Source: Sphaerolaimus hirsutus
Taxonomy: Eukaryota; Nematoda; Chromadorea; Monhysterida; Sphaerolaimidae
Reading direction: 5' to 3'
Length of the DNA: 64,000 nt
Assembly: GCA_964036195.1 (NCBI GenBank)
Contig: OZ038453.1
Span: forward strand, 17,521,206-17,585,205
Shown in pieces: positions 12,901-58,125 of this stretch. Numbering within the stretch: the stretch's first letter is position 1; each line of letters begins with the position of its first letter. The notes beneath the pieces were generated by a model. It ran no database searches, was not told the DNA's origin, and saw nothing but the letters and a program-made list of their open reading frames with translations. The translations under genes were made by a program, and so were the position numbers.

Positions 12901-15900
12901 AACCTAAAAAGTTACTGAATCTGTCAAAATAAAGAAACAATCTTTTAAAATTGTCTTTCTATATTTATTTTTAATCTTAGTTTGATATCTGGTGTGGTGC
13001 CTTTCGGGAAGGGATTAATAGGTGGGAAGAATTGGTGAGCGCAGCAAAATTAAATTGCAGCTGTCTGTACATAATGTAAAATAATATTTTTGGCGCCAAA
13101 GGGCCCACACACTAGTTGACATCAAAATTAGTGTCAACTAAATTTTGATTAATTAAGTGATTTAAATATTCCTATGTGATAGTTTGTTTTGTATCGTGAC
13201 GCTTAATTTTCATTGTTTATGTTAAGTGTGATACTTCCAAAAATTCTTGTGTTATTTAGTTGACATTCAATTAACATTTGAGTGCGAGGGGGGGGCGGGG
13301 GGGGCGGCCGCCCCCCCTTCCCGGGTCGGACAAAAAAAATATGCCAGAAATGGCACTTCCGTAAAGCGATTTTGTTGGTAGCTCGGAAAAATTTTGCGCG
13401 CAAGCGCGCATTTCGTCGCCCTACAGTATATTTCATTAATACCTATAGTTTGAGACAAAAAAGCACCCAAAATCTGTCCCGGTTGCTGTATATGTATGTA
13501 AAATACATACATGTACAGCGGTATTTGGCGCCATTGCCAACGCCAATGGCGCCATACGCGGCGCCTACGAATGGCGCTGGCGCCATTCCTTAACCACAGG
13601 GGTCAAATTTTAGGGGGGGGGCGCCGCCCCCAGCCGTTCGCCGGGCTTCGTATACAATCCGCCCCCCCCCCCGCTCAAAAATTCTGGCTACGTCCCTGCC
13701 CCCCCCAACTCGACCCCCCCCCGCAGCTTACAGGCGGCCAGCCCGTGCCGCACATCACAGATCTATGGCGTAGAAAATCCCTCCGCACCGCCCTTTTTAT
13801 AGCTCTGACAGTCATGGTGGCGCAGCAGTTCACCGGCGTTGGCGCCATTTTCACCTATAGCACAAGTATTTTTGAGAGTGCCGGACTTGACTTGGAGATG
13901 GCACAGTATGCTACTATGGGCACTGGTGGGTTGGGTGGTTTGGATGTGGGTAGTTGGATGGATGGATGGAAGGCGAGGTTTTTGAGTGGCGATGTTGTCT
14001 TTAAATTTGATTTTTTTAAATTGTTAGTTGTATTCAGAATAAAGGAATTAATGCTGAATTAATTAGTGAAGAATTAATGAAGGAAGTCAATGGACTTGTC
14101 AATATTTACCGCATTTACTCTAATAATTACCGGGGACATTTTTTTCCTTATTTTTTTGAGGGGGAACTATTCGAGGGGGGAATTATTCAAGGGAGGACTT
14201 ATTTTTTAGGCAAAGATTCAGGCATGTTTCTATCAATTCATTTGATGAAATATGCTTAATATGTGACAAAATTATTCATCGATTGTTCTTAAAGATATGG
14301 GCAGTATTTTATCTTCCACCGGTGAGGGAGAGGGAATTATTAGAGGGGGTGGGTATTTTTTCCCCACTCGTCTAACAGGGGGGGGGGGTTATCCAAGAGG
14401 GGGAATTATTCGAGTAAATACGGTAGGCTTCAAAATACAACTGAACACAATGGGCTGTTTAATCTCAACGTCGCAGGGCCACCTGACAAATCCAATGTAA
14501 TCATTCCTCCCAGGTCTAGCCTACATGCTGTCCACCATCCCCTCCCCTTACTTGATCGAGCGCGTGGGCCGCAGGGGCCTGTCCCTGTTCCAATTGACCG
14601 GCGTTTTAGTGGCCCTTATCGCATTTGCCGCCAGCATGTTCGCTCAGGGAAGGGGTGCCGGTGAGTGTGGGTCAATGGGGGTGGCGAGTGCTTGGGATTG
14701 GGATTCGGGACCATGTGAATTTTGTTTTGGATTCGAAAAAACATTTGTAATTTCGCAGTTGATTAATTAGACCGCGTTCACACTGCATTTTTTTGACGAC
14801 GCCGACAACACTTGAAAAAGTTCCATAAGTCGAGTGAAAAGTTTCATATTCATGAGTGAATGTGGTAAAGTATACATACCACCTAGGTGTATATGAGTCA
14901 GTCTATGAGTCAATAGCCACTCCAGGAACAAAAGCTGGACACCGAAAAATAAATGAAAATTGTGAAAATGGTCCTAAGGTACTCCAATGGGTCCAGTAAG
15001 TTATGCAATACATGTAAAATTTTCATTCGTATATATCGCATATACTTGAAAGTGAATATTTCCAAAATTGGGCATTTCTGACATAATTTGCTATTTGGTG
15101 CCCAACTATCAAAACATAATAGCTATATTTTGTACCATTGGAAAGCTGAAATTGTGAACTTTCATTATCCACTGCTGACCAGTAGGTTCAATGTCGTAAG
15201 TTTATACATAAGGTTTCAAAATGTACTGCATGAACTAATCTGGGTCAATCAAATCGCATGTGAGGCCAAAACTAAGGAGACGTAACGGCTATATTTTATA
15301 CCGTTGCGAAGCTGAGAACCTCCTCTTTCAAAATCCACAGCCTCCCCAGAGGCTCGCGTTAGCATTTTTATACCTAAGATTTCAAAACGTGCTGCGCACA
15401 CTACTCTTGGGTGATCGCATCGCATGTGAGGCCGGAACTAAGGAGACGTAACAGCTATATTTGATACCGTTGCAAAGCTGAGAACCTCCTCTTTCAGAAT
15501 TCACAGCCTCCCCAGAAGCTCGCGTTAGGATTTTTATACCTAAGATTTCAAAACATGCTTTTTGCAGAAATCGAGGGTCGATTGTATCACATGTGGGGCC
15601 AAAACTAAGGAGACGTAACGGCTATATTTTATACCGTTGCGAAGCTGAGAACCTCCTCTTTCAGAATCCACAGCCTCCCCAGAGGCTCGCGTTAGCATTT
15701 TTATAGCTAAGATTTCAAAACGTGATGTGCACCCTAATCTAGGGTTGATTGTATTGCATGTGGGGCCGGAACCAGGAAAAACTAAATGCTGTGGTCTATA
15801 CCATTGGAAAGCTTAGAAAATTCTCTTTCAGAAACTGCCACTCTCCAGAAGGTTCATCGTCACGATTTTATACATAAGATTTGAAAACGTGGAATGCGCC

Positions 15901-27900: not shown

Positions 27901-30900
27901 GCCCCAATCAAGGGTTGATTGTATTGCATGTGAGGCCGGAACCAGGAAAAACTAAATGCTGTGATTCATACCATTGGAAAGCTGAGATAATTCTCTTTCA
28001 GATAGTACCACTCTCCAGAAGGTTCACCGTCACGATTTTATACCTAAGATTTTAAAACATGCAGTTTGCAGAAATCCAGGGTCGATCGTATCGCATGTGA
28101 GGCCGGAACTAAGGAGACGTAACGGCTATATTTGATACCGTTGCGAAGCTGAGAACATCCTCTTTCAGAATCCACAGCCTCCCCAGAGGCTCGCGTTAGG
28201 ATTTTTATACCTAAGATTTCAAAACATGCTATGTGCAGAAATCGAGGGTCGATTGTATCACATGTGAGGCCAAAACTAAGGAGACGTAACGGCTATATTT
28301 GATACCGTTGTGAAGCTGAGAACCTCCTCTTTCAGAATCTACAGCCTCCCCAGAGGCTCGCGTTAGCATTTTTATACCTAAGATTTCAAAACGTGATGTG
28401 CGCCCTAATCTAGGGTTGATTGTATTGTATGTGGGGCCGGAACCAGGAAAAACTAAATGCTGTGGTCTATACCATTGGAAAGCTTAGAAAATTCTCTTTC
28501 AGAAACTGCCACTCTCCAGAAGGTTCACCGTCACGATTTTATACATAAGATTTGAAAACGTGGAATGCGCCCCAATCAAGGGTTGATTGTATTGCATGTG
28601 AGGCCGGAACCAGGAAAAACTAAATGCTGTGATTCATACCATTGGAAAGCTGAGATAATTCTCTTTCAGATAGTACCACTCTCCAGAAGGTTCACCGTCA
28701 CGATTTTATACCTAAGATTTCAAAACATGCAGTTTGCAGAAATCCAGGGTCGATCGTATTGCATGTGAGGCCGGAACTAAGGAGACGTAACGGCTATATT
28801 TGATACTGTTGCGAAGCTGAGAACATCATCTTTCAGAATTCACAGCCTCCCCAGAAGCTCGCGTTAGGATTTTTATACCTAAGGTTTCAAAACATGCTAT
28901 GTGCAGAAATCGAGGGTCAATTGTATCACATGTGAGGCCAAAACTAAGGAGATGTAACGGCTATATTTGATACCGTTGTGAAGCTGAGAACCTCCTCTTT
29001 CAGAATCCACAGCCTCCCCAGAGGCTCGCGTTAGATTTCAAAACGTGATGTGCGCCCTAATCTAGGGTTGATTGTATTGCATGTGGGGCCGGAACCAGGA
29101 AAAACTAAATGCTGTGGTCTATACCATTGGAAAGCTTAGAAAATTCTCTTTCAGAAACTGCCACTTTCCAGAAGGTTCACCGTCACGATTTTATACATAA
29201 GATTTGAAAACGTGGAATGCGCCCCAATCAAGGGTTGATTGTATTGCATGTGAGGCCGGAACCAGGAAAAACTAAATGCTGTGATTCATACCATTGGAAA
29301 GCTGAGATAATTCTCTTTCAGATAGTACCACTCTCCAGAAGGTTCACCGTCACGATTTTATACCTAAGATTTCAAAACATGCAGTTTGCAGAAATCCAGG
29401 GTCGATCGTATCGCATGTGAGGCCGGAATCCACAGCCTCCCCAGAAGCTCGCGTTAGGATTTTTATACCTAAGGTTTCAAAACATGCTATGTGCAGAAAT
29501 CGAGGGTCGATTGTATCACATGTGAGGCCAAAACTAAGGAGATGTAACGGCTATATTTGATACCGTTGTGAAGCTGAGAACCTTTTCTTTCAGAATCCAC
29601 AGCCTCCCCAGAGGCTCGCGTTAGCATTTTTATACCTAAGATTTCAAAACATGCTATGTGCAGAAATCGAGGGTCGATTGTATCACAAATGAGGCCAAAA
29701 CTAAGGAGACGTAACAGCTATATTTGATACCGTTGTGAAGCTGAGAACCTCCTCTTTCAGAATCCACAGCCTCCCCAGAGGCTCGCGTTAGCATTTTTAT
29801 ACCTAAGATTTCAAAAACGTGATGTGCGCCCTAATCAAGGGTTGATTGTATCGCATGTGGGGCCGGAACCAGGAAAAACTAAATGCTGTGGTCTATACCA
29901 TTGGAAAGCTTAGAAAATTCTCTTTCAGAAACTGCCACTCTCCAGAAGGTTCACCGTCACGATTTTATACATAAGATTTGAAAACGTGGAATGCGCCCCA
30001 ATCAAGGGTTGATTGTATTGCATGTGAGGCCGGAACCAGGAAAAACTAAATGCTGTGATTTATACCATTGGAAAGCTGAGATAATTCTCTTTCAGATAGT
30101 ACCACTCTCCAGAAGGTTCACCGTCACGATTTTATACCTAAGATTTCAAAACATGCAGTTTGCAGATATCCAGGGTCGATCGTATCGCATGTGAGGCCGG
30201 AACTAAGGAGACGTAACGGCTATATTTGATACCGTTGCAAAGCTGAGAACATCCTCTTTCAGAATCCACAGCCTCCCCAGAGGCTCGCGTTAGGATTTTT
30301 ATACCTAAGATTTCAAAACATGCTATGTGCAGAAATCGAGGGTCGATTGTATCACATGTGAGGCCAAAACTAAGGAGACGTAACAGCTATATTTGATACC
30401 GTTGTGAAGCTGAGAACCTCCTTTTTCAGAATCCACAGCCTCCCCAGAGGTTCGCGTTAGCATTTTTATACCTAAGATTTCAAAACGTGATGTGCGCCCT
30501 AATCTAGGGTTGATTGTATCGCATGTGGGGCCGGAACCAGGAAAAACTAAATGCTGTGGTCTATACCATTGGAAAGCTTAGAAAATTCTCTTTCAGAAAC
30601 TGCCACTCTCCAGAAGGTTCACCGTCACGATTTTATACATAAGATATGAAAACGTGGAATGCGCCCCAATCAAGGGTTGATTGTATTGCATGTGAGGCCG
30701 GAACCAGGAAAAACTAAATGTTGTGATTCATACCATTGGAAAGCTGAGATAATTCTCTTTCTGTGGCTGTGGATTCTGAAATGGGATATTCTCAGGTTCG
30801 CAACAGTATAAAATATAGCCGTTACGTCTCCTTAGTTCCGGCCTCACATGAGATGCGATCACCCAAAAGTAGTGCATGCAGCACATTTTGAAATCTTACG

Positions 30901-33900
30901 TATAAAAATGCCAACGCGAGCCCCTGGGAAGGCTGTGGATTCTGAAAGAGGATGTTCTCAGCTTCGCAACGGTATAAAATATAGCCGTTACGTCTCCTTA
31001 GTTCCGGCCTCACATGAGATGCGATCACCCAAAAGTAGTGCATGCAGCACGTTTTGAAATCTTCGTATAAAATCGTGACAGTGAACCTTCTTGAGAGTGG
31101 TAGATTCTGAAAGAGAATTTTCTCAGCTTTCCAATGGTGTAGACCACGGCATTTAGCTTTTCCTGGTTCCAACCTCACATGCGTTGTGATCACCCAAGAG
31201 TAGTGCGCACAGCATGTTTTAAAATCTTAGGTATAAAAATGCTAACGCGAGCCTCTGGGGAGGCTGTGGATTCTGAAACGGGATGTTCTCAGCTTCGCAA
31301 TGGTATAAAATATAGCCGTTACGTCTCCTTAGTTCTGGCCTCACATGAGATGCGATCACCCAAGAGTAGTGCATTCAGCACATTTTGAAATCTTAGGTAT
31401 AAAATTGTGATGGTGAACCTTCTTGAGAGTGGTAGATTCTGAAAGAGAATTATCTCAGCTTTCCAATGGTGTAGACCACAGCATTTAGTTTTTCCTGGTT
31501 CCAACCTCACATGTGATGCAATCACCCAAGAGTAGTGCATGCAGCATGTTTTGAAATCTTAGTTATAAAATCGTGACGGTGAACCTCCTTGAGAGTGGTA
31601 GATTCTAAAAGAAAATTTTCTCAGTGTTCCAATGGTATAGACCACAGCATTTAGTTTTTCCTGGTTCCAACCTCACATGTGATGCAATCACCCAAGAGTA
31701 GTGCGCACAGCATGTTTTGAAATCTTAGGTATAAAAATGCTAATGCGAGCCTCTGGGAAGGCTGTGGATTCTGAAAGGGGATGTTCTCAGCTTCGCAACA
31801 GTATAAAATATAGCCGTTACGTCTCCTTAGTTCTGGCCTCACATGAGATGCGATCACCCAAGAGTAGTGCATGCAGCATGTTTTGAAATCTTAGGTATAA
31901 AAATGCTAACGCGAGCTTCTGGGGAGGCTGTGGATTCTGAAAGAGGATGTTCTCAGCTTCGCAACGGTATAAAATATAGCCGTTACGTCTCCTTAGTTCC
32001 GGCCTCACATGAGATGCGATCACCCAAGAGTAGTGCATTCAGCACATTTTGAAATCTTAGGTATAAAATTGTGATGGTGAACCTTCTTGAGAGTGGTAGA
32101 TTCTGAAAGAGAATTATCTCAGCTTTCCAATGGTGTAGACCACAGCATTTAGTTTTTCCTGGTTCCAACCTCACATGTGATGCAATCACCCAAGAGTAGT
32201 GCATGCAGCATGTTTTGAAATCTTAGTTATAAAATCGTGACGGTGAACCTCCTTGAGAGTGGTAGATTCTAAAAGAAAATTTTCTCAGTGTTCCAATGGT
32301 ATAGACCACAGCATTTAGTTTTTCCTGGTTCCAACCTCACATGTGATGCAATCACCCAAGAGTAGTGCGCACAGCATGTTTTGAAATCTTAGGTATAAAA
32401 ATGCTAATGCGAGCCTCTGGGAAGGCTGTGGATTCTGAAAGGGGATGTTCTCAGCTTCGCAACAGTATAAAATATAGCCGTTACGTCTCCTTAGTTCTGG
32501 CCTCACATGAGATGCGATCACCCAAGAGTAGTGCATGCAGCATGTTTTGAAATCTTAGGTATAAAAATGCTAACGCGAGCTTCTGGGGAGGCTGTGGATT
32601 CTGAAAGAGGATGTTCTCAGCTTCGCAACGGTATAAAATATAGCCGTTACGTCTCCTTAGTTCCGGCCTCACATGAGATGCGATCACCCAAAAGTAGTGC
32701 ATGCAGCACATTTTGAAATCTTACGTATAAAAATGCCAACGCGAGCCTCTGGGAAGGCTGTGGATTCTGAAAGAGGATGTTCTCAGCTTCGCAACGGTAT
32801 AAAATATAGCCGTTACGTCTCCTTAGTTCCGGCCTCACATGAGATGCGATCACCCAAAAGTAGTGCATGCAGCACGTTTTGAAATCTTCGTATAAAATCG
32901 TGACAGTGAACCTTCTTGAGAGTGGTAGATTCTGAAAGAGAATTTTCTCAGCTTTCCAATGGTGTAGACCACAGCATTGAGTTTTTCCTGGTTCCAACCT
33001 CACATGCGATGCGATCACCCAAGAGTAGTGCGCACAGCACGTTTTGAAATCTTAGGTATAAAAATGCTAACGCGAGCCTCTGGGAAGGCTGTGGATTCTG
33101 AAAGGGGATGTTCTCAGCTTCGCAATGGTATAAAATATAGCCGTTACGTCTCCTTAGTTCCGGCCTCACATGAGATGCGATCACCCAAAAGTAGTGCATG
33201 CAGCACATTTTGAAATCTTACGTATAAAAATGCCAACGCGAGCCTCTGGGAAGGCTGTGGATTCTGAAAGAGGATGTTCTCAGCTTCGCAACGGTATAAA
33301 ATATAGCTGTTACGTCTCCTTAGTTCCGGCCTCACATGAGATGCGATCACCCAAAAGTAGTGCATGCAGCACGTTTTGAAATCTTCGTATAAAATCGTGA
33401 CAGTGAACCTTCTTGAGAGTGGTAGATTCTGAAAGAGAATTTTCTCAGCTTTCCAATGGTGTAGACCACAGCATTGAGTTTTTCCTGGTTCCAACCTCAC
33501 ATGCGATGCGATCACCCAAGAGTAGTGCGCACAGCACGTTTTGAAATCTTAGGTATAAAAATGCTAACGCGAGCCTCTGGGAAGGCTGTGGATTCTGAAA
33601 GGGGATGTTCTCAGCTTCGCAATGGTATAAAATATAGCTGTTACGTCTCCTTAGTTCCGGCCTCACATGAGATGCGATCACCCAAAAGTAGTGCATGCAG
33701 CACATTTTGAAATCTTACGTATAAAAATGCCAACGCGAGCCTCTGGGAAGGCTGTGGATTCTGAAAGAGGATGTTCTCAGCTTCGCAACGGTATAAAATA
33801 TAGCTGTTACGTCTCCTTAGTTCCGGCCTCACATGAGATGCGATCACCCAAAAGTAGTGCATGCAGCACGTTTTGAAATCTTCGTATAAAATCGTGACAG

Positions 33901-36900
33901 TGAACCTTCTTGAGAGTGGTAGATTCTGAAAGAGAATTTTCTCAGCTTTCCAATGGTGTAGACCACAGCATTGAGTTTTTCCTGGTTCCAACCTCACATG
34001 CGATGCGATCACCCAAGAGTAGTGCGCACAGCACAATTTGAAATCTTAGGTATAAAAATGCTAACGCGAGCCTCTGGGAAGGCTGTGGATTCTGAAAGGG
34101 GATGTTCTCAGCTTCGCAATGGTATAAAATATAGCCGTTACGTCTCCTTAGTTCCGGCCTCACATGAGATGCGATCACCCAAGAGTAGTGCATTCAGCAC
34201 ATTTTGAAATCTTAGGTATAAAATTGTGATGGTGAACCTTCTTGAGAGTGGTAGATTCTTAAAGAGAATTATCTCAGCTTTCCAATGGTGTAGACCACAG
34301 CATTTAGTTTTTCCTGGTTCCAACCTCACATGTGATGCGATCACCCAAGAGTAGTGCATGCAGCACGTTTTGAAATCTTAGTTATAAAATCGTGATGGTG
34401 AACCTCCTTGAGAGTGGTAGATTCTGAAAGAAAATTTTCTCAGCGTTCCAATGGTATAGACCACAGCATTTAGTTTTTCCTGGTTCCAACCTCACATGTG
34501 ATGCAATCACCCAAAGGTAGTGCGCACAGCATGTTTTGAAATCTTAGGTATAAAAATGCTAATGCGAGCCTCTGGGAAGGCGGTGGATTCTGAAAGGGGA
34601 TGTTCTCAGCTTCGCAACAGTATAAAATATAGCCGTTACGTCTCCTTAGTTCCGGCCTCACATGAGATGCGATCACCCAAAAGTAGTGCATGCAGCACAT
34701 TTTGAAATCTTACGTATAAAAATGCCAACGCGAGCCTCTGGGAAGGCTGTGGATTCTGAAAGAGGATGTTCTCAGCTTTGCAACGGTATAAAATATAGCC
34801 GTTACGTCTCCTTAGTTCCGGCCTCACATGAGATGCGATCACCCAAAAGTAGTGCATGCAGCACGTTTTGAAATCTTCGTATAAAATCGTGACAGTGAAC
34901 CTTCTTGAGAGTGGTAGATTCTGAAAGAGAATTTTCTCAGCTTTCCAATGGTGTAGACCACAGCATTGAGTTTTTCCTGGTTCCAACCTCACATGCGATG
35001 CGATCACCCAAGAGTAGTGCGCACAGCACAATTTGAAATCTTAGGTATAAAAATGCTATCGCGAGCCTCTGGGAAGGCTGTGGATTCTGAAAGGGGATGT
35101 TCTCAGCTTCGCAATGGTATAAAATATAGCCGTTACGTCTCCTTAGTTCCGGCCTCACATGAGATGCGATCACCCAAGAGTAGTGCATTCAGCACATTTT
35201 GAAATCTTAGGTATAAAATTGTGATGGTGAACCTTCTTGAGAGTGGTAGATTCTGAAAGAGAATTATCTCAGCTTTCCAATGGTGTAGACCACAGCATTT
35301 AGTTTTTCCTGGTTCCAACCTCACATGTGATGCGATCACCCAAGAGTAGTGCATGCAGCACGTTTTGAAATCTTAGTTATAAAATCGTGATGGTGAACCT
35401 CCTTGAGAGTGGTAGATTCTGAAAGAAAATTTTCTCAGCGTTCCAATGGTATAGACCACAGCATTTAGTTTTTCCTGGTTCCAACCTCACATGTGATGCA
35501 ATCACCCAAAGGTAGTGCGCACAGCATGTTTTGAAATCTTAGGTATAAAAATGCTAATGCGAGCCTCTGGGAAGGCGGTGGATTCTGAAAGGGGATGTTC
35601 TCAGCTTCGCAACAGTATAAAATATAGCCGTTACGTCTCCTTAGTTCCGGCCTCACATGAGATGCGATCACCCAAAAGTAGTGCATGCAGCACATTTTGA
35701 AATCTTACGTATAAAAATGCCAACGCGAGCCTCTGGGAAGGCTGTGGATTCTGAAAGAGGATGTTCTCAGCTTCGCAACGGTATAAAATATAGCCGTTAC
35801 GTCTCCTTAGTTCCGGCCTCACATGAGATGCGATCACCCAAAAGTAGTGCATGCAGCACGTTTTGAAATCTTCGTATAAAATCGTGACAGTGAACCTTCT
35901 TGAGAGTGGTAGATTCTGAAAGAGAATTTTCTCAGCTTTCCAATGGTGTAGACCACAGCATTGAGTTTTTCCTGGTTCCAACCTCACATGCGATGCGATC
36001 ACCCAAGAGTAGTGCGCACAGCACGTTTTGAAATCTTAGGTATAAAAATGCTAACGCGAGCCTCTGGGAAGGCTGTGGATTCTGAAAGGGGATGTTCTCA
36101 GCTTTGCAATGGTATAAAATATAGCCGTTACGTCTCCTTAGTTCCGGCCTCACATGAGATGCGATCACCCAAAAGTAGTGCATGCAGCACATTTTGAAAT
36201 CTTACATATAAAAATGCCAACGCGAGCCTCTGGGAAGGCTGTGGATTCTGAAAGAGGATGTTCTCAGCTTTGCAACGGTATAAAATATAGCTGTTACGTC
36301 TCCTTAGTTCCGGCCTCACATGAGATGCGATCACCCAAAAGTAGTGCATGCAGCACGTTTTGAAATCTTCGTATAAAATCGTGACAGTGAACCTTCTTGA
36401 GAGTGGTAGATTCTGAAAGAGAATTTTCTCAGCTTTCCAATGGTGTAGACCACAGCATTGAGTTTTTCCTGGTTCCAACCTCACATGCGATGCGATCACC
36501 CAAGAGTAGTGCGCACAGCACAATTTGAAATCTTAGGTATAAAAATGCTAACGCGAGCCTCTGGGAAGGCTGTGGATTCTGAAAGGGGATGTTCTCAGCT
36601 TCGCAATGGTATAAAATATAGCCGTTACGTCTCCTTAGTTCCGGCCTCACATGAGATGCGATCACCCAAGAGTAGTGCATTCAGCACATTTTGAAATCTT
36701 AGGTATAAAATTGTGATGGTGAACCTTCTTGAGAGTGGTAGATTCTGAAAGAGAATTATCTCAGCTTTCCAATGGTGTAGACCACAGCATTTAGTTTTTC
36801 CTGGTTCCAACCTCACATGTGATGCGATCACCCAAGAGTAGTGCATGCAGCACGTTTTGAAATCTTAGTTATAAAATCGTGATGGTGAACCTCCTTGAGA

Positions 36901-39900
36901 GTGGTAGATTCTGAAAGAAAATTTTCTCAGCGTTCCAATGGTATAGACCACAGCATTTAGTTTTTCCTGGTTCCAACCTCACATGTGATGCAATCACCCA
37001 AAGGTAGTGCGCACAGCATGTTTTGAAATCTTAGGTATAAAAATGCTAATGCGAGCCTCTGGGAAGGCGGTGGATTCTGAAAGGGGATGTTCTCAGCTTC
37101 GCAACAGTATAAAATATAGCCGTTACGTCTCCTTAGTTCCGGCCTCACATGAGATGCGATCACCCAAAAGTAGTGCATGCAGCACATTTTGAAATCTTAC
37201 GTATAAAAATGCCAACGCGAGCCTCTGGGAAGGCTGTGGATTCTGAAAGAGGATGTTCTCAGCTTCGCAACGGTATAAAATATAGCCGTTACGTCTCCTT
37301 AGTTCCGGCCTCACATGAGATGCGATCACCCAAAAGTAGTGCATGCAGCACGTTTTGAAATCTTCGTATAAAATCGTGACAGTGAACCTTCTTGAGAGTG
37401 GTAGATTCTGAAAGAGAATTTTCTCAGCTTTCCAATGGTGTAGACCACAGCATTGAGTTTTTCCTGGTTCCAACCTCACATGCGATGCGATCACCCAAGA
37501 GTAGTGCGCACAGCACGTTTTGAAATCTTAGGTATAAAAATGCTAACGCGAGCCTCTGGGAAGGCTGTGGATTCTGAAAGGGGATGTTCTCAGCTTTGCA
37601 ATGGTATAAAATATAGCCGTTACGTCTCCTTAGTTCCGGCCTCACATGAGATGCGATCACCCAAAAGTAGTGCATGCAGCACATTTTGAAATCTTACATA
37701 TAAAAATGCCAACGCGAGCCTCTGGGAAGGCTGTGGATTCTGAAAGAGGATGTTCTCAGCTTCGCAACGGTATAAAATATAGCTGTTACGTCTCCTTAGT
37801 TCCGGCCTCACATGAGATGCGATCACCCAAAAGTAGTGCATGCAGCACGTTTTGAAATCTTCGTATAAAATCGTGACAGTGAACCTTCTTGAGAGTGGTA
37901 GATTCTGAAAGAGAATTTTCTCAGCTTTCCAATGGTGTAGACCACAGCATTGAGTTTTTCCTGGTTCCAACCTCACATGCGATGCGATCACCCAAGAGTA
38001 GTGCGCACAGCACAATTTGAAATCTTAGGTATAAAAATGCTAACGCGAGCCTCTGGGAAGGCTGTGGATTCTGAAAGGGGATGTTCTCAGCTTCGCAATG
38101 GTATAAAATATAGCCGTTACGTCTCCTTAGTTCCGGCCTCACATGAGATGCGATCACCCAAGAGTAGTGCATTCAGCACATTTTGAAATCTTACGTATAA
38201 AATTGTGATGGTGAACCTTCTTGAGAGTGGTAGATTCTGAAAGAGAATTATCTCAGCTTTCCAATGGTGTAGACCACAGCATTTAGTTTTTCCTGGTTCC
38301 AACCTCACATGTGATGCGATCACCCAAGAGTAGTGCATGCAGCACGTTTTGAAATCTTAGTTATAAAATCGTGATGGTGAACCTCCTTGAGAGTGGTAGA
38401 TTCTGAAAGAAAATTTTCTCAGCGTTCCAATGGTATAGACCACAGCATTTAGTTTTTCCTGGTTCCAACCTCACATGTGATGCAATCACCCAAAGGTAGT
38501 GCGCACAGCATGTTTTGAAATCTTAGGTATAAAAATGCTAATGCGAGCCTCTGGGAAGGCGGTGGATTCTGAAAGGGGATGTTCTCAGCTTCGCAACAGT
38601 ATAAAATATAGCCGTTACGTCTCCTTAGTTCCGGCCTCACATGAGATGCGATCACCCAAGAGTAGTGCATGCAGCATGTTTTGAAATCTTAGGTATAAAA
38701 ATGCTAACGCGAGCTTCTGGGGAGGCTGTGGATTCTGAAAGAGGATGTTCTCAGCTTCGCAACGGTATAAAATATAGCCGTTACGTCTCCTTAGTTCCGG
38801 CCTCACATGAGATGCGATCACCCAAAAGTAGTGCATGCAGCACGTTTTGAAATCTTAGGTATAAAATCGTGACGGTGAACCTTCTTGAGAGTGGTAGATT
38901 CTGAAAGAGAATTTTCTCAGCTTTCCAATGGTGTAGACTACAGCATTTAGTTTTTCCTGGTTCCAACCTCACATGCATTGTGATCACCCAAGAGTAGTGC
39001 GCACAGCATGTTTTAAAATCTTAGGTATAAAAATGCTAACGCGAGCCTCTGGGGAGGCTGTGGATTCTGAAACGGGATGTTCTCAGCTTCGCAATGGTAT
39101 AATCTATAGCCGTTACATCTCCTCAGATCCGGCCTCACATGAGATGTGATCAGCCAAGAGAAGTGCATGCAGCATGTTTTGAAATCTTAGGTATAAAATC
39201 GTGACGTTGAACCTTCTTGAGAGTGGTAGATTCTGAAAGAGAATTTTCGCAGCTTTCCAATGGTGTAGACCACAGCATTTAGTTTTTCCTGGTTCCAATC
39301 TCACATGCGATGCGATCACCCAAGAGTAGTGCGCACAGCACGTTTTGAAATCTTAGGTATAAAAATGCTAACGCGAGCCTCTGGGAAGGCTGTGGATTCT
39401 GAAAGGGGATGTTCTCAGCTTCGCAATGGTATAAAATATAGCCATTACGTCTCCTTAGTTCCAGCCTCACATGAGACGCGATCACCCAAAAGTAGTGCAT
39501 GCAGCACGTTTTGAAATCTTAGGTAGAAAAACGTGACGGTGAACCTTCTTGAGAGTGGTAGATTCTGAAAGAGAATTTTCTCAGCTTTCCAATGGTGTAG
39601 ACCAGAGCATTTAGTTTTTCCTGGTTCCAACCTCACATGCGTTGCGATCACCCAAGAGTAGTGAGCACAGCACGTTTTGAAATCTTAGGTATAAAAATGT
39701 TAACGCGAGCCTCTGGGAAGGCTGTGGATTCTGAAAGGGGATGTTCTCAGCTTCGCAATGGTATAAAATATAGCCATTACGTCTCCTTAGTTCCAGCCTC
39801 ACATGAGACGCGATCACCCAAAAGTAGTGCATGCAGCACGTTTTGAAATCTTAGGTATAAAATTGTGACGGTGAACCTTCTTGAGAGTGGTAGATTCTGA

Positions 39901-42900
39901 AAGAGAATTTTCTCAGCTTTCCAATGGTGTAGACCAGAGCATTTAGTTTTTCCTGGTTCCAACCTCACATGCGTTGCGATCACCCAAGAGTAGTGCGCAC
40001 AGCATGTTTTAAAATCTTAGGTATAAAAATGCTAACGCAGGCCTCTGGGGAGGCTGTGGATTCTGAAACGGGATGTTCTAAGCTTCGCAATATTATAAAA
40101 TATAGCCGTTACGTCTCCTCAGATCCGGCCTCACATGAGATGTGATCACCCAAGAGTAGTGCATGCAGCACGTTTTGAAATCTTAGGTATAAAATCGTGA
40201 TGGTGAACTTTCTTGAGAGTGGTAGATTCTGAAAGAGAATTTTCTCAGCTTTCCAATGGTGTAGACCACAGCATTGAGTTTTTCCTGGTTCCAACTTCAC
40301 ATGCGATGCGATCACCCAAGAGTAGTGCGCACAGCACGTTTTGAAATCTTAGGTATAAAAATGCTAACGCGAGCCTCTGGGAAGGCTGTGGATTCTGAAA
40401 GGGGATGTTCTCAGCTTCGCAATGGTATAAAATATAGCCGTTACGTCTCCTAAGTTCCGGCCTCACATGAGATGCAATCACCCAAGAGTAGTGCATTCAG
40501 CACATTTTGAAATCTTAGGTATAAAATCGTGATGGTGAACCTTCTTGAGAGTGGTAGATTCTGAAAGAAATTATCTCAGCTTTCCAATGGTGTAGACCAC
40601 AGCATTTAGTTTTTCCTGGTTCCGACCTCACATGCGATGCGATCACCCAAGAGTAGTGCATGCAGCACGTTTTGAAATCTTAGGTATAAAATCGTGACAG
40701 TGAACCTCCTTGAGAGTGGTAGATTCTGAAAGAAAATTTTCTCAGCGTTCCAATGGTATAGACTACAGCATTTAGTTTTTCCTGGTTCCAACCTCACATG
40801 CGATGCGATCACCCAAGAGTAGTGCGCACAGCACGTTTTGAAATCTTAGGTATAAAAATGCTAACGCGAGCCTCTGGGAAGGCTGTGGATTCTGAAAGGG
40901 GATGTTCTCAGGTTCGCAACAGTATAAAATATAGCCGTTATGTCTCCTTAGTTCCGGCCTCACATGAGATGCGATCACCCAAAAGTAGTGCATTCAGCAC
41001 ATTTTGAAATCTTAGGTATAAAATCGTGATGGTGAACCTTCTTGAGAGTGGTAGATTCTGAAAGAAATTATCTCAGCTTTCCAATGGTGTAGACCACAGC
41101 ATTTAGTTTTTCCTGGTTCTGACCTCACATGCGATGCGATCACCCAAGAGTAGTGCATGCAGCACGTTTTGAAATCTTAGGTATAAAATCGTGACAGTGA
41201 ACCTCCTTGAGAGTGGTAGATTCTGAAAGAAAATTTTCTCAGCGTTCCAATGGTATAGACTACAGCATTTAGTTTTTCCTGGTTCCAACCACACATGCAA
41301 TGCAATCACCCAAGAGTAGTGCGCACAGCACGTTTTGAAATCTTAGGTATAAAAATGCTAACGCGAGCCTCTGGGAAGGCTGTGGATTCTGAAAGGGGAT
41401 ATTCTCAGGTTCGCAACAGTATAAAATATAGCTGTTACGTCTCCTTAGTTCCGGCCTCACATGAGATGCGATCACCCAAAAGTAGTGCATGCAGCATGTT
41501 TTGAAATCTTAGGTATAAAATCATGACGGTGAACCTTCTTGAGAGTGGTAGATTCTGAAAGAGAATTTTCTCAGCTTTAAAATGGTGTAGACCACAGCAT
41601 TTAGTTTTTCCTGGTTCCAACCTCACATGTGATGCAATCACCCAAGAGTAGTGTGCACAGCACGTTTTGAAATCTTAGGTATAAAAATGCTAATGCGAGC
41701 CTCTGGGGAGGCTGTGGATTCTGAAAGGGGATGTTCTCAGCTTCGCAACGGTATAAAATATAGCCGTTACGTCTCCTTAGTTCCGGCCTCACATGAGATG
41801 CGATCACCCAAAAGTAGTGCATGCAGCACGTTTTGAAATCTTAGGTATAAAATTGTGACAGTGACCCTTCTTGAAAGTGGTAGATTCTGAAAGAGAATTT
41901 TCTCAGCGTTCCAATGGTATAGACCACAGCATTTAGTTTTTCCTGGTTCCGACCTCACATGTGATGCGATCACCCAAGAGTAGTGCGCACAGCACATTAT
42001 GAAATCTTAGCCATAAAAATGCTAACGCTAGCCTCTGGGAAGGCTGGGGATTCTGAAAGGGGATGTTCTCAGCTTCGCAACGGTATAAAATATAGCCGTT
42101 ACGTCTCCTTAGTTCCGGCCTCACATGAGATGCGATCACCCAAAAGTAGTGCATGCAGCACGTTTTGATCTCTTAGGTATAAAAATGCTAACGCAAGCCT
42201 CTGGGGAGGCTGTGGATTCTGAAAGAGGATGTTCTCAACTTCGCAACGGTATAAAATATAGCCATAACGTCTCCTTGGTTCTGGCCTCACATGAGATTTG
42301 ATCACCCAAGAGTAGTGTGCACAGCACATTTTGAAATCTTAGGTATAAAAATGCTTACGCGAGCCTCTGGGGAGGCTGTGGATTCTGAAAGAGGATGTTC
42401 TCAGCTTCTCAACGGTATAAAATATAGCCGTTACGTCTCCTTAGTTTTGGCCTCAGTCGTGATGCGATCACCTCATGTCACCATTCCATGCTAAAATGCT
42501 CAATTTTGCTATATATAAGAGGAAACAGAAAAAATGAAATATCATTTTTTTTTTTCAGTGTTATACAAGCAACACTTTAAGAAAATAAATTTTTTTTCGA
42601 TGTGTCCAACTTTTGGCTACTGACTTGTAGACTGACTCTTATGCATGTCAAATTTCAGATGAATCGTGTGTGTTGCTCAAAAGTTATACATGTTTATAGA
42701 AAAATTTGCCACTGTCGGAGCCAGACAGGTGCGCCGACAATTCAAAACAAAATTGGTCGTCACATTGCGCGAGTGAGACAACAAGTAAAATATTTGATCT
42801 AGTCGTCACAATGAGAATCGTTAAAAAGGGTCGTTACTTGTCGCCAATAACGAGGCCGACCAGTCGTCACACTCATGAAAATCTGCTAAAAAATAGATTT

Positions 42901-44740
42901 GTCATCACAAAACGGTCTGTGACGAGTAAGATCTATTGTCGTCACACAAGTGCAGTGTGAAAGAGGCCTTAATGGATTAATTTCCATTAACCACATAAAA
43001 TGGCACCCACAAATACCATAGGTCTACCCGCTTCTTACTGCTGTGTGGCATCTCTCACGGTCTACATGATAGTTTATGGATCCGGTTCCCCGGTGGCTTG
43101 GCTCATTGCCAGCGAATTGTTCAGTCTACAATATAGGGGCCACGCGGTCACTTTGAGCACGTTTTGTGCCTGGAGCGGCAGTTTTATAATTACACTGGCG
43201 TATCCACCGTTGAAGAGCGTAGGTTTTTGCTGGGGAAATTTGGTTGGGAATTTTGGGTGTGGTATGGTTTTATTTATCGCCAAATTCTGTCAGAAAATTG
43301 TGTGTGCTCGTGGTGTGTTTTTGATTGGAGCCTCGCACCTTGTAAAGTGTAAAGTCAAATGTCAAATGTCATGCAAAACTTCAATAAAATAAAAAATGAA
43401 AGATTTTAATACGGAACTTGATATTTTGCATGACCATTGACAAATTTGTATGATATTTGACAGTTTAACAACTTTAAATTTAAATTTGACAACTTTAAAC
43501 TTTACAGGGTGCTGGACTGGCACCCTGTCCGACTTGCCTAGGAGACGTTTAGCAACGCAAAGACTGATAGGTTCAAGGTACTTATGTGACATGTGTACCG
43601 AAATGTTACTTAGGAAACCTTGTTGTAAAAAGCTATTAAATATCTAAAAAGTAGTGTTGATTAATTGATCACAAATTTTTATCGCCACATTGCACTAGAC
43701 TTTACAACATGCAAATACGCAGGCAGTGGGCAGCGTTTTGAGCCTGGTGCCATTCATGGTCGTGCTATTAGTGACAATCATAATTCTCGCAATTCTTTTG
43801 CCAGGTGCGCTCTGTTACCCATTCGAAAATGGCGCCAAAAATCCCCCCCCCTCAAACCCCCCCCCCCCCCCACAGAGACCAAAAACCGTCCCGTAGAAGA
43901 CATAGTCCGCGAGTTCCGCCGCCGCTCAAAGTCCGTCTCGCACACGTTCGTCAACCTCCGCGTGGCCGGCACGCAGCTCGCCGGCGGTAAAACCGACTTG
44001 GATTTACTTTTGGAACAAGAGGGCGATGAGAATGATGAGGAAAGTGCTACTGAGAGCGAAGTGGATGAATTGGATTTGACTAGCAGTGGAAGCGTGAGGG
44101 TGGGTCCTAATGGGAATGCATTTGGTTGTGGGGTATTCTAAGGGCAAGTGGTAAAGTGACAGGAAAAGTGTTTGTTATGTATTTTTACGCTACTGGAAAT
44201 ACTTGTCACTTACTACTCTACTTGGCACTTTTCTTACCACTTATAAGTTTACTTGTAGCCTTGAAACTTGTACTTGTAATCACTCGATGTACAACTTTAC
44301 CACTTTCCTTGTCACTTCTCCACTTGTGGAGTTGGCTCAAGAACACTGGCGCCATTCCACCACTGGACCCAACATGAAGTACAAAATAGATATTTTCATA
44401 TACAACTTTTCTTGTACACAATAATTCTACTTACCGTATTCCCTCGAATTACCCCCAGGGGTTTATTTTTTTAGTTTGAGTTTTGAGGGTGTTAAAGGAG
44501 GTGAGGGTATTTCGAGGAAATACGGTAACATGCTTTAAAAACTTTTGCAACTTTAACTTTTACAACTTTAAACCCATCCAGACACGTCAAAGCAGCGGCG
44601 GGGACACCGGATACAACACTCATAAAACACACACATCTGCGCCGGTTGTTTTGGCTGGTGAAAGAGACAATTTGCAACAGGGAAAGAATAGCTGTGTTTT
44701 GCGCGATTATGGTGCTATACAGAAGGTCACTTTTGATTGA
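6844..44740 (+). CDS. SLC2A/GLUT-type facilitative sugar transporter, 12 exons, ~591 aa
   Basis: Major facilitator superfamily transporter of the sugar porter (SLC2A) family, expected in the plasma membrane. Proposed coding exons: 6844-6963, 7448-7574, 8288-8429, 9172-9263, 11592-11775, 12018-12127, 13734-13925, 14514-14660, 43022-43218, 43723-43804, 43876-44099, 44582-44740. All introns are GT-AG, phases agree at every junction, and the total is a multiple of three. Family hallmarks appear in order: TM1 near 15-40, glycosylation site NET (48-50) in the first outer loop, GRR at 95-97, PMYLMEITP around 145-153, HQ at 164-165, PESPR at 212-216, QQ at 289-290, RVGRR at 339-343, a tryptophan before SELFS at 398, LPETK at 463-467. 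Odd points: the Asn usual after QQxSGx is Gly295, and the TM8 Asn position looks like Ala325, so the substrate may not be glucose. Ordinary GLUTs are about 500 residues; the extra length is a long polar C-terminal tail. Family call is firm; substrate and the exact paralogue are not. Confidence 0.93.
7448..7574 (+). CDS. SLC2A exon 2 (first outer loop)
   Basis: Residues 41-83. It starts after CTACACGCAG and ends at a GTTGCA donor, phase 1. It carries the N-glycosylation motif NET in the long loop between TM1 and TM2, placed as in GLUT1, and the start of TM2. Intron 2 then holds a C-rich stretch (7610-7735) resembling the CCGTATTT MITEs, and the 7882-8264 element. Confidence 0.9.
7882..8264. 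mobile_element. 17-bp-module element in intron 2, 383 bp, 9-bp TSD
   Basis: Perfect 9-bp direct repeats GTAAAATAC (7873-7881, 8265-8273). The 19-nt ends are GGGTATGTGCCTGTGCGCA and, from the right, GGCGAGAACACGCTGCGCA. They are followed by 17-bp units such as TGCGCATCTAAACTCGG. The right duplication ends 14 bp before exon 3. The interior has GC-rich sequence related to the 683-1120 MITE. Confidence 0.85.
8288..8429 (+). CDS. SLC2A exon 3 (TM2-TM3, GRR motif)
   Basis: Residues 83-130. The acceptor is TTCTGTCTTCGCAG and the donor GGAAG|GTTGGT (phase 2). It contains HIGRRSG, the RxGRR-type signature of the TM2-TM3 loop, and ends in LLIFGR, matching the conserved GR at the start of TM4. The acceptor's pyrimidine tract begins directly after the right target duplication of the 7882-8264 element. 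Confidence 0.9.
8706..9124. mobile_element. 17-bp-module element in intron 3, 419 bp
   Basis: Inverted ends contain CGACATCTAAACCCATCC in 17-bp register. The 19-nt left block is GAGCCCGTGCCATCCGACA and the right, inward, GGGCCATGCTTAACCGACA. The flanks are CGCTGGAA and CACTGGAA, an 8-bp duplication with one mismatch. Exon 4 starts 47 bp downstream. Confidence 0.75.
9172..9263 (+). CDS. SLC2A exon 4 (TM4)
   Basis: Residues 130-161, with LLYGMCMGVSSGLCPMYL followed by MEITP and RRG, the family's conserved E..R motif after TM4. The acceptor CCTATCGCAG has a weak pyrimidine tract. The donor is GCAG|GTGGGA, phase 1. Both splice phases agree with exons 3 and 5. Confidence 0.9.
9420..9562. repeat. 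Copy of an internal part of the 12221-12860 hAT
   Basis: Matches 12660-12795 over about 140 bp (shared AATGCTATCCCATG, TATATAACATCACA, ATATGTTGAC). Similarity resumes after 11311, so the 1.73-kb element appears to have inserted into an older relative of that hAT. Confidence 0.6.
9571..11303. mobile_element. Large foldback 17-bp-module element in intron 4, 1.73 kb
   Basis: Flanked by GACTCATG (9563-9570, 11304-11311). The ends GGCAAGGGCCCATTCCGCA and, inward from the right, GACAGTGTAGCATTCCGCA lead into arrays of CCCATTCCGCACATGTG-type units. The inverted arms are each about 700 bp and surround a core (about 10240-10740) that is itself palindromic, with GTAGCGTTGGGTTGA words. No transposase found. 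Confidence 0.8.
11592..11775 (+). CDS. SLC2A exon 5 (TM5-TM6, PESPR)
   Basis: Residues 161-222. It starts GTVHQ, retaining the Gln that contacts sugar in TM5 of GLUT1, and ends PESPRFLLITR. An earlier GT right after the PESPR codons would also be open, but the donor at AG|GTTGGT (11776) keeps FLL after PESPR as in other GLUTs and has the same sequence as the exon 3 donor, so I prefer it. Confidence 0.88.
12018..12127 (+). CDS. SLC2A exon 6 (cytoplasmic loop)
   Basis: Residues 222-259, a basic and helical stretch (RRRRIAAKKA and onward) of the large TM6-TM7 loop. The acceptor is ATGTTTCAG. The 3' edge is uncertain: A|GTGTCT (phase 1) pairs with the exon 7 start at 13734, while AGT|GTCTGT (phase 0) would pair with 13727. 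Both keep the frame and differ by three residues. Confidence 0.8.
12221..12860. mobile_element. hAT-like element in intron 6, 640 bp, TSD CACACCAC
   Basis: Ends TAGGGTTGG and CCAACCCTA with perfect 8-bp direct repeats CACACCAC (12213-12220, 12861-12868). The subterminal zones are T- and A-rich with AAAACGTT words, the interior AT-rich. No coding capacity. Confidence 0.88.
13282..13698. mobile_element. Truncated relative of the 683-1120 hAT MITE
   Basis: Shares the G/C-run segments, TCCCGGGTCGGACAA, AATTTTGCGCGCAAGCGCGC, the GGCGCC-rich middle and the right end CTGGCTACGTCCCTG. The left terminal repeat is missing. It ends 28-35 bp before exon 7 in intron 6. Confidence 0.8.
13734..13925 (+). 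CDS. SLC2A exon 7 (TM7)
   Basis: Residues 259-323. It contains QQFTGVGAIFTYSTSIF, the TM7 sugar-site helix; GLUT1 has Asn where this protein has Gly (295). The acceptor is CTTACAG (13733) or, seven bases earlier, a GCAG after a long C run. Both sit just past a truncated transposon copy that ends at 13698. Confidence 0.9.
14109..14423. mobile_element. MITE of the CCGTATTT family in intron 7
   Basis: Inverted ends CCGCATTTACTC and GAGTAAATACGG are bordered by TA. The interior is GGGGGAATTATTC-type sequence on both arms. Other family members are listed below. Confidence 0.75.
14514..14660 (+). CDS. SLC2A exon 8 (TM8, second RxGRR)
   Basis: Residues 323-372. It begins GLAYMLSTIPSPYL and contains ERVGRRGL, the second RxGRR motif, then TM9. 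The acceptor is CATTCCTCCCAG and the donor CCG|GTGAGT (phase 1), a near-consensus site. The next exon is 28.4 kb away. Confidence 0.92.
15088..30761. repeat. Satellite array, left arm, ~167-bp monomers
   Basis: About 94 monomers of two classes. Class A carries AGGAGACGTAACGGCTATAT and CAGCCTCCCCAGAGGCTCG; class B carries ACTAAATGCTGTG and CCAGAAGGTTCACCGTCACG. They alternate as AABB, giving a 668-bp unit (sometimes 836). Longer periods of 2839 and 5656 bp are visible. The first monomer is the most divergent, as usual at satellite edges. Confidence 0.95.
30762..42470. repeat. Satellite array, right arm, inverted, ~166-bp monomers
   Basis: About 70 monomers of the same family on the opposite strand. 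The register differs: periods of 166, 497 (three monomers) and 1492 bp (nine monomers) dominate from 32.6 to 38.6 kb. Monomers from 39 kb outward are more diverged. Confidence 0.95.
43022..43218 (+). CDS. SLC2A exon 9 (TM10-TM11)
   Basis: Residues 372-437. It holds YCCVASL, then GSGSPVAWLIASELFS, which matches the GPGPIPW...AELFS motif of TM10. The tryptophans equivalent to GLUT1 W388 and W412 are both present (398, 422). The acceptor at 43021 lies only 50 bp after the TTA repeat that closes the intron 8 element. Donor AGC|GTAGGT, phase 0. Confidence 0.92.
43723..43804 (+). CDS. SLC2A exon 10 (TM12)
   Basis: A short exon encoding 27 residues that are almost wholly hydrophobic (VLSLVPFMVVLLVTIIIL), ending ILLP. 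It starts phase 0 after AATACGCAG and ends phase 1 at CCAG|GTGCGC. It joins to GAGACC to give LPETK, the family signature after TM12. Confidence 0.88.
43876..44099 (+). CDS. SLC2A exon 11 (PETK signature, acidic tail)
   Basis: Residues 465-539: ETKNRPVEDI, a basic stretch, then an acidic tail rich in Glu and Asp. The acceptor follows a run of more than ten C residues. It is read here to the AGG|GTGGGT donor (phase 0), joining exon 12. Without splicing the frame runs 13 more codons to a TAA ending at 44141, giving a shorter isoform. Confidence 0.82.
44434..44525. mobile_element. CCGTATTT MITE in SLC2A intron 11
   Basis: A 92-bp element bordered by TA, with inverted ends CCGTATTCCCTCGAATTACC and its near-complement. 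Confidence 0.75.
44582..44740 (+). CDS. SLC2A exon 12 (C-terminal tail, stop)
   Basis: Encodes 52 polar residues starting TRQSSGGDTGYNTHKTH and a TGA. The acceptor follows a pyrimidine-rich tract ending CCATCCAG, and phase 0 matches the exon 11 donor. The content resembles the tail of exon 11 (Ser/Thr rich, soluble). It is less certain than the membrane exons because no family motif lies here. Confidence 0.65.
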   Translation, partial: TRQSSGGDTGYNTHKTHTSAPVVLAGERDNLQQGKNSCVLRDYGAIQKVTFD

Positions 44741-52505: not shown

Positions 52506-54056
52506 CAGAGTTGCGAAAGCGTATTTACGCTTGCCCGAAATACCCGGGTAAATGGGTATTTATACTTACGCTTACGCTTTCATAAAATACCCGTACGCTT
52601 TATTACGCTTTCCCAGCTGAAATACCCCGATACCCCGCTTTTGAAAAAGTGTAAAACCACCCAAAAAAGTGACTGCGTGTGTGTAGTAATTAGTGATGGA
52701 ATGGCGCCATGGCGCTGGCGCCAAAGGGCGCCGCGCCATGGCGCCATTGGCGCTTGGCGCCCTTTTTCTGTGGCGCCCTTGGCGCCTGGCGCCCACATTC
52801 TGAAAGGCGCCATGGCGCCCTTGGCGCTTGGCGCCCTTTTTCCGTGGCGCCCTTGGCACCTGGCGCCCCGCTTTTAAAGGGCGCCAAAAAGGCGCCAGCA
52901 GGGTTTCAAGGTGAGTGCTGTATAAATGGAAAAAAAAGATGAAAAACGCATTCATGGATGATCTGAATTCGCCAGAAAAATGGATGAAGTGGTGTGAGTG
53001 GGTATAAATCTTTTGTGCAACGATTCATCAGATGTGTTTGACAGATCAGAAGACCAGAATGATGGAACGTTGAACTTGCAAAATCATAAATCAACGGATT
53101 CAAATCGTTGCAATTCCGTTTTTTTGGTCCATTTCGAGGAAACATGATTGGAAAAGTCAATTTGAAGTGAATGGATTGTTGTCAAATCACAATATCCATT
53201 GTGTTTGAATTGTCATATGACTTTTACTCGAATTTTTTTGTTGCTAGTAATGTCTTTGTTCATTACACCCTGGAGAACGCAAATTAAGTAGTGGATGCAT
53301 GTACTAGAGTGCTGTAGAAACACTTTTAGCACACGCAGGGTGTTGTATGCACTTATTTATCCTGGCGCCCTTGGCGCCTGGCGCCCTATTTTTCAAATGG
53401 CGCCATGGCGCCCTTGGCGCTTGGCGCCCTCTTTCTGTGGCGCCCTTGGCGCCTGGCGCCCGCTTTCCGAATGGTGCCATGGCGCCCTTGGCGCCTGGCG
53501 CCCTTTTTCTGTGGCGCCCTTGGCGTTTGGCGCCCACTTTCTGAATGGCGCCATGGCGCCATTGGCGCCTGGCACCCTTTTTTCTGGCGCTTTTCCATCA
53601 CTAGTAGTAATGCACTGGAAATAGCGGCACATCTATTTACAGATTGTGTCGCAATTTGAAAAATTGGTTAATACTGTGTGGGTTTAGATTAGAAATTTTG
53701 GGGCCAAAAATGGATTCCGTTCCGACAAAGATCTTGTCGTCCTCAACAGCACGAAGTCCGAGTTAGAAAATGAAGATGAACTAAGGTAGTGTTGCTGCCA
53801 TGAATTTCCAATGAATTGAATGAATCTAATGGCAGACGACGAAGTGGGCGTCAAAAAATTTCACTGTGAGCTTGACTTTGAACGAATTCACTTAGCAAAA
53901 ACCCTCTTAAAAAAATTTTTACGCTTACGCTTTTTTTACGCTTTCCTAGGTATTCTAAAAATACCTTACGCTTTGAGTATCCATACTCAAAATATGGAAA
54001 GTGTATTCACGCTTACGCTTACGCTTTCCAAAAATACCTGTATTTTAACAACTCTG
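52506..54056. mobile_element. hAT-like element, 1551 bp, TSD GTATGTAA
   Basis: Ends CAGAGTTG and CAACTCTG with perfect 8-bp direct repeats GTATGTAA (52498-52505, 54057-54064). Subterminal zones are tandem TTACGC hexamers on both sides. It is interrupted by another hAT-like element at 52691. Confidence 0.92.
52691..53603. mobile_element. hAT-like element nested in 52506-54056, 913 bp, TSD GTAGTAAT
   Basis: Begins TAGTGATGGAATGGCGCC and ends GGCGCTTTTCCATCACTA, with perfect 8-bp direct repeats GTAGTAAT (52683-52690, 53604-53611). Both subterminal zones are long runs of GGCGCC-type words. Confidence 0.92.
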
Positions 54057-57579: not shown

Positions 57580-58125
57580 GCAAAAACTGACACCCCAGTG
57601 GGGACCCCCCTCCAAATGGCATCACCCAGGGAACCCTCCAAAAGTGGCACCCCCTGGGAACCACCCAAAAATGGGACCCCCTAGGGCCCCACAAATATGG
57701 CACCCCCTGAGGACCACCAAAAAATGGCACCCCTTAGGGACCCCCCAAAAATAGCACCCCCTAGGGACCCCCCAAAAATGGCACCCCCTGGGGACCCCCC
57801 AAACATGGCACCCCCTAGGAACCGCCACAAAAATGGCACCCCCTGGGGACCCACCCAAAGTTGGCTCCCCCTGGGGACTCTCCAAAAATGGCACCCCCTG
57901 GGGACCTCCCCCCAAAATGGCACCCCCTATGGACCCCCCCCCCCACAAAAAAATATAGCACCCCCCTAAGGACCAACAAAAAACGGCACCGCTGGGGACC
58001 ACCCAAAAAATGGCATCCCATGGGGACCCCCTTGAAATGGCACCCCCATATGTGCCTCCAAAAAATGGCATCCCCTGGAGACCCCCCAAAAATGGCACCC
58101 CATGGGGACCCCCTCTAAATCCTGT
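57580..58125. repeat. Minisatellite, ~28-30 bp GGCACCCC unit
   Basis: About 18 imperfect copies of a unit like AAATGGCACCCCCTGGGGAC. Unit length varies by a few bases. The open frames across it on both strands reflect the repeat. Confidence 0.9.

Follow-up and report, generated by a model that had tools for sequence, protein, structure and literature searches.

The locus analyzed here raises the question of how a satellite palindrome of 27.2 kb came to lie between transposon ends inside the intron of a gene. A preliminary description had taken the whole as a single PIF/Harbinger-like element, with long inverted arms that had turned into tandem arrays. The analysis makes a different history very probable, i.e., two insertions nested in the intron: a Harbinger-type MITE and, inside it, a non-autonomous, TA-targeting element of a foldback family, with satellite arms turning over after insertion. 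The window, by which the whole stretch of 64,000 nt analyzed is meant, contains no Ns.

The Host Gene and Its Intron

The host of the nested insertions is an SLC2A/GLUT-like sugar transporter gene. Sequence from parts of three exons, joined by hand, matched GLUT3 (best E 1.7e-19), and the same joined pieces matched the Pfam domain Sugar_tr (PF00083, E 1.7e-27). The features of the gene are the following:

14661..43021, + strand: intron of the SLC2A/GLUT-like gene, 28,361 bp, with GT donor and AG acceptor present
about 14514-14660 and 43022-43219, + strand: exons flanking the intron, limits set by eye

Subtracting the insert and one TTA leaves an intron of 159 bp, in agreement with the ~160 bp, with one TTA, that had been anticipated. 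An empty allele was sought in the genome, where the intron flank was found in a single copy. Two nested insertions would have brought the intron a gain of 28 kb, its splice sites being kept in place.

The Outer Element Is a Harbinger-Type MITE

The satellite is framed by inverted repeats (14770-14800 and 42938-42968), whose score was reached by 0/2000 shuffles, and which are bordered by TTA, as had been described. They are the ends of a high-copy MITE of ~450 bp, with GACCGCG ends, which is divided into two parts:

14767..14769, no strand: left TTA target duplication of the MITE, read in the sequence, duplications compared across other copies
14770..14893, + strand: left part of the MITE, at least 94% in the best 40 scored of 320 candidates
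42640..42968, + strand: right part of the MITE, which in other copies directly adjoins the left part
42969..42971, no strand: right TTA target duplication of the MITE, read and compared in the same way

The left 100 bp of the MITE, used as query for the genome search, gave 320 candidate places; the best 20 other places of 40 scored were sampled, taking 10 kb at each. Satellite was present in 0/20 of these 10-kb stretches (best 20 of 40 scored); all 20 copies fetched share the left end but lack monomers, and are of the kind that the preliminary description had proposed to look for. In 16 of the 20 copies the left part, up to base ~126, directly abuts the right part, which starts near base 168 as counted in the window's right end; this intact, satellite-free junction speaks against the satellite being integral to the MITE. 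In the remaining four copies the junction is altered, by an insertion in L017 and by deletions in L032, L033, and L034. The right end lies within 2 kb of the left one in 18/20 other copies, and the 3-bp flanks of these two-ended copies are identical (TTA or TAA) in 14/18, the duplication failing in L020, L024, L025, and L029.

PIF/Harbinger MITEs are characterized by TWA duplications and short TIRs. The outer element resembles them in its TWA duplication, in its short TIRs, and in its 320 candidate places, and the TTA/TAA duplication is the hallmark of the Harbinger type; judged on its sequence, the outer element is a TWA-targeting, Harbinger-type MITE. Thus, a Harbinger-like element does frame the stretch, as proposed, but the arms are not its own: unlike the PIF/Harbinger owner that had been envisaged, the outer MITE only hosts the satellite element and is not the source of the satellite. 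As a separate observation, L032 and L033 (G000:C1), 25.7 kb apart, have identical flanks (CACTTA...TTAACT) and the same internal deletion, and therefore probably belong to one larger duplicated segment.

A Second Transposon Is Nested in the MITE

According to the preliminary description, the inverted similarity runs on continuously inside the outer ends; in fact it breaks off after ~31 bp. Nothing significant follows, until a further inverted block (14888-14919 versus 42614-42645) and then the satellite; this second block belongs to a nested element, with ends of ~26-bp inverted repeats, TGAGTCAGTCTAYGAGTCARTAGCCA. Its features are listed here:

14894..42639, + strand: inner foldback transposon, which carries the satellite and measures 27,746 bp, with its own TIRs, TA duplication, and dispersed family
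14892..14893, no strand: left TA target duplication, from the MITE empty site GGTGTA-TA-TGCATG
14894..14919, + strand: left TIR TGAGTCAGTCTATGAGTCAATAGCCA, inverted match to the right end, score reached by 0/2000 shuffles
14894..15252, + strand: left unique end, copies of 14889-15130 occurring elsewhere in the genome
42473..42639, + strand: right unique end, with copies elsewhere in the genome
42614..42639, - strand: right TIR, inverted match to the left end, score reached by 0/2000 shuffles
42640..42641, no strand: right TA target duplication, from the MITE empty site and the flanks of other copies

In the alignment, empty MITE copies read GGTGTATATGCATG and the window reads GGTGTATA-[TGAGTC...GACTCT]-TATGCATG; because the MITE copies run through the site uninterrupted, this is an insertion of 27,746 bp with duplication of TA, the target duplication of Tc1/mariner-type elements. 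The arrays are indeed the inverted arms of a TIR transposon, as had been proposed, with TIRs and TA duplication that belong to the inner element.

Long inverted tandem-repeat arms behind a short unique outer domain, which is the foldback architecture, were found in the window and in the copies L045, L060, and L061. A degenerate satellite monomer, with a likeness of about 67-76%, makes up the inner portion of the left unique end (~15111-15244). Among frames of at least 90 aa, the window copy has only frames up to 134 aa, within repeats, and in this it agrees with a foldback-type element that lacks coding capacity.

The satellite also occurs without the outer ends, an observation that had been named in advance as contrary to a single element. 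The MITE was matched in 0/32 other stretches of the inner element (several being cuts of one locus, and 14 being right-end stretches of ~284 bp, with ~60 bp of flank); other satellite loci start with the same TGAGTC end, and their flanks are unrelated.

The Inner Element Forms a Dispersed Family

The 26-bp TIR, with up to 2 mismatches, had 241 matches in the genome, and the reversed control had none. The left unique end (14889-15130) was 97-100% identical in the best 40 scored of 245 candidates, and the right unique end 93-100% in the best 40 scored of 192 candidates, the window being included in both cases. The places of the family, among the matches listed, are dispersed. Since relatives of the inner element lie across the genome, satellite DNA appears to travel inside a transposon: it would have spread over the chromosomes by forming the arms of a mobile element, whose ends (TGAGTCAGTC) and target duplication are still legible in a copy of ~28 kb.

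To these matches a pairing rule was applied. A total of 116 distinct ends were pooled from 98 exact TIR matches listed (of 241), 40 right ends, and 15 of 40 left ends, and facing neighbours within 60 kb were paired, with no requirement for left or right type. The rule gave 36 pairs among the 116 listed ends, and each of them (36/36) joined one left-type and one right-type end. The 44/116 ends left unpaired, among the matches listed, are explained at least partly by the fact that only part of all matches stands among those listed. The 36 pairs measure 1.7-32.3 kb (median 11.6 kb), the window copy being the third longest; these are end-to-end distances, and not all of the length is satellite.

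TA is found on both sides in 7/8 copies with both flanks, window included; the exception is L045, where it is absent on the left. TA also follows 14/14 other right ends fetched and abuts 15/16 left-end cuts (13/14 loci other than the window), a set that includes the window, one locus twice, and L061 by its right end; the true left flank of L061 is TA-terminated too. The complete small copies, of 1.7, 3.0, and 3.3 kb, all have opposed satellite arms with one turn (3/3), and an inverted monomer precedes the unique right end in 14/14 right ends fetched (of 40 scored; by eye). The unique end of L061 is 98.1% alike to that of the window, and those of other copies are 96-98% alike.

Two observations concern the interior of single copies. 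The C720 copy (L062, G000:C720), of 26.8 kb, starts with its left end and left arm, together ~3.2 kb, beyond which different sequence extends to the 10-kb limit read; at L062:3222-10000, after 16 left-arm monomers, there is an open frame of 1811 aa, a putative LTR-retrotransposon polyprotein. As this satellite element is interrupted by a retrotransposon-like stretch, some long copies may be swollen by nested insertions. In the 3.0-kb copy, 447 bp within the left arm (L060:1021-1468) have no satellite match.

Satellite Arms and Inversion Axis

The satellite palindrome reported in the preliminary description is real: TRF identified, over 27.2 kb, ~160 monomers of 166-167 bp in two opposed arms (15.5 kb the left, 11.7 kb the right). 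The long tandem arrays and the nucleosome-sized monomer of 166-167 bp are those of a satellite; no match to Rfam was obtained at the gathering threshold, and the satellite was therefore rejected as a known RNA family.

15253..30761, + strand: left satellite arm of A-type and B-type monomers, usually 167 bp long, with 94 monomer anchors
30765..42472, - strand: right satellite arm, 70 monomer anchors, 165-166 bp, with a 497-bp trimer and its own B type
30758..30795, no strand: inversion axis of the palindrome; the axis-covering pattern is axis-like at 6 genome places, window included

The 86 A-type monomers (49 of them in the left arm) are common to both arms, whereas the B types are arm-specific, with 43 monomers only in the left and 32 only in the right arm. 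Mean monomer divergence is 0.19 within the left arm and 0.17 within the right, versus 0.23 between arms. This distinction is maintained in other copies: at seven loci picked by the unique left end, 48/50 monomers were nearest to the window's left arm, and in all left-arm stretches 109/112, a set in which some stretches repeat a locus or were picked by a left-arm monomer; the one full right-arm monomer of L045 was nearest to the window's right arm (1/1). Because other copies keep the arm identity of their monomers, the two arms were probably distinct before the copies dispersed.

The axis pattern had 21 matches in the genome; eight of them correspond to the 6 axis-like places, two of which match on both strands, and the other 13 are variants of right-arm monomers. 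A hairpin of the A monomer (AGCCTC-CCCA-GAGGCT; z of the monomer hairpin fold, -4.2) coincides with the axis or adjoins it in the window and in L045, and likewise in the axis-like sequences of four more places, these four of the six being known from the matched letters alone. L060 and L061 turn at sites other than the hairpin, so that a fixed axis was rejected; for the same reason, an origin of the inversion by snap-back at the hairpin is only suggestive.

Probable Turnover of the Arrays

In the left arm, a module that mostly comprises 17 monomers recurs every 2839 bp; identity at this lag is 96.8% over 11.4 kb, and at twice the lag it is 97.1%. Comparison of the window with the C720 copy gave 97.5% for the unique end alone and 87.8% for the first 3.2 kb in register, unique end included; the order of the monomers differs. 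When the first 1.1 kb of array were compared with the window in register, eleven stretches, among them C720, had identities of 0.91-0.95, and the values for L045 and L060 were 0.87 and 0.83 (L061 was left out, and many of these alignments have hundreds of gap columns). Some copies over 1.1 kb thus resemble the window more closely than does C720 over 3.2 kb, which weighs against the contrast on which turnover is argued. The number of leading monomers also varies among copies.

The unique ends are 96-98% alike, yet the order and the length of the arrays differ, which suggests that the arrays were probably amplified and homogenized in place, after the copies separated. Since the unique ends lend themselves to comparison independently of the arrays, the family would provide a way to measure array growth and homogenization after insertion, which is hard in heterochromatin.

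Proposed Origin of the Locus and Alternative Explanations

The proposed history would start with the insertion of the ~450-bp Harbinger-type MITE into the transporter intron, at TTA. A non-autonomous element with ~26-bp inverted ends would then have inserted at a TA inside the MITE; it would belong to a family of dispersed, foldback-type elements, whose body consists of two opposed arms of the 166-167-bp satellite. The arm-specific monomers and the opposed arms of other copies support arms that would predate dispersal. The element may move by its terminal repeats, with a transposase supplied in trans, probably of the Tc1/mariner kind, as suggested by one feature, the TA duplication. The genome contains 23 DDE_3 and 4 Transposase_1 matches, none of which was seen by eye within ~40 kb of the 116 listed ends, a set covering less than half of the 241 TIR matches. 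After insertion, each array would separately lengthen, shorten, and homogenize, leading here to a copy of 27.7 kb.

A single PIF/Harbinger-like element, with its own long inverted arms converted into satellite, would account for the outer TIRs and the TTA duplication that frame the whole. It was rejected, and retains practically no probability, being contradicted by MITEs that are free of satellite (0/20 other copies fetched carry it), by satellite elements that occur without the MITE, and by the empty-site alignment, which shows inside the MITE a satellite element with TIRs and a TA duplication of its own. Assemblies are prone to errors in long tandem arrays, and the size of the array or its inversion could be an artefact; this is very unlikely, given the greater divergence between than within arms, the arm-specific B types, the same inversion in the copies of 1.7, 3.0, and 3.3 kb, and the agreement of the 14/14 right ends fetched. 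Because the two arms differ, the palindrome is not a folded duplicate, and an assembly fold-back was rejected on this divergence and on the opposed arms of the small copies. Spread of the satellite by circular DNA or recombination, with the terminal repeats as mere passengers, would recall the rolling-circle and stem-loop origins of tandem repeats that are proposed in other animals in the available part of a review (PMC12628747); TGAGTC ends with TA on both sides in 7/8 copies and a left/right pair of ends in 36/36 cases make this route highly improbable.

A further alternative concerns the size at which the inner element moved: it may have transposed near its present tens of kb, array included, perhaps aided by pairing of the arms, which would draw the ends together. 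Large copies are numerous (the median distance between paired ends is 11.6 kb in 36 pairs) and arm-specific monomers are conserved between copies, but array order and leading-monomer number vary among copies, the left-arm modules of the window (96.8%) are more alike than the array is to C720 in register (87.8%), and the pair length takes in other insertions in at least one copy, so that movement at full size is rather unlikely. A bolder extension, which is doubtful, would be a self-dispersing satellite, whose palindromic arrays of tens of kb move as single transposons and seed TA sites chromosome-wide, arm pairing replacing the size limit of TA transposons.

Comparison with Known Systems

Nested insertion followed by array turnover, the history preferred here, can be compared with elements in which satellite inside transposon arms is already known, i.e., Tetris, TCAST, miDNA4, and one 9-kb Galileo copy, all taken from the available parts of their descriptions. 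Tetris of Drosophila virilis is a non-autonomous, foldback-type element, whose terminal repeats have an outer unique domain and ~220-bp tandem repeats, the latter being found as satellite arrays too, with as many as 66 copies; repeat number varies among copies, and a 37-bp stretch is common to the repeat and the outer domain (PMC4079207). The inner element shares with Tetris the foldback type, the unique outer domain with tandem repeats that also build satellite arrays, and the variable repeat number, and the degenerate monomer of its left unique end resembles the stretch shared by the Tetris repeat and outer domain (PMC4079207). A 66-copy Tetris array would measure ~14.5 kb by our own arithmetic, near the length of one arm here; its authors considered that long arrays may have disrupted the element (PMC4079207). 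In contrast, the Tetris target duplication is 8-10 bp, for which Mutator was suggested, versus TA in the inner element; its terminal repeats reach 1,735 bp at most, versus arms here of 15.5 and 11.7 kb, which the ends still enclose; and three structurally complete copies compare with 36 end pairs here, among the matches listed (PMC4079207).

The TCAST transposon-like elements of Tribolium castaneum have satellite in both inverted ends, are dispersed near genes and within introns, and were suggested to be mariner/Tc1 (PMC3411249), all of which recalls the inner element, itself probably of the Tc1/mariner kind. They are, however, at most 1181 bp long, with about one monomer per arm versus up to ~94 monomers in an arm here, and they show an ACT duplication and 12.7% average divergence, versus TA and unique ends 96-98% alike (PMC3411249). 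The Xenopus miDNA4, a Tc1/mariner-type MITE, also carries satellite inside, as a monomer or as an array of variable copy number; opposed palindromic arms are not mentioned in the available parts of the two reviews (PMC12628747, PMC9659126). Galileo of D. willistoni is likewise foldback-like, and in one of its copies both extended TIRs contain tandem repeats; Galileo belongs to the P superfamily, with a 7-8-bp duplication versus TA in the inner element, and its longest copy is 9,021 bp, with repeat blocks of up to 9 units (PMC4168063). In the literature found, part of which was available as excerpts, no two-ended satellite foldback element of this size is described; compared by these descriptions, what appears new is the combination, within a family this numerous, of arms this long, both ends preserved, and an intact target duplication.

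Other Repeats in the Window

Further repeats were observed in the window. Positions 697-1121 and 13286-13699 are two copies of a single dispersed element; they share 85.7% identity over 427 bp, and their G-rich open frames are similar. Two nearby arrays, at 52733-52886 and 53363-53590, have a 74-bp unit of TGGCGCC words, and a 27-bp minisatellite (CAAAAATGGCACCCCCTGGGGACCCCC) is present at 57581-58113 in 13 + 5 copies, with long open frames on both strands. At 60180-60957 a 391-bp unit is found as a tandem duplicate (96%); this unit contains a repeat of ~115 bp, which resembles the 116-bp repeat at 58254-58875.
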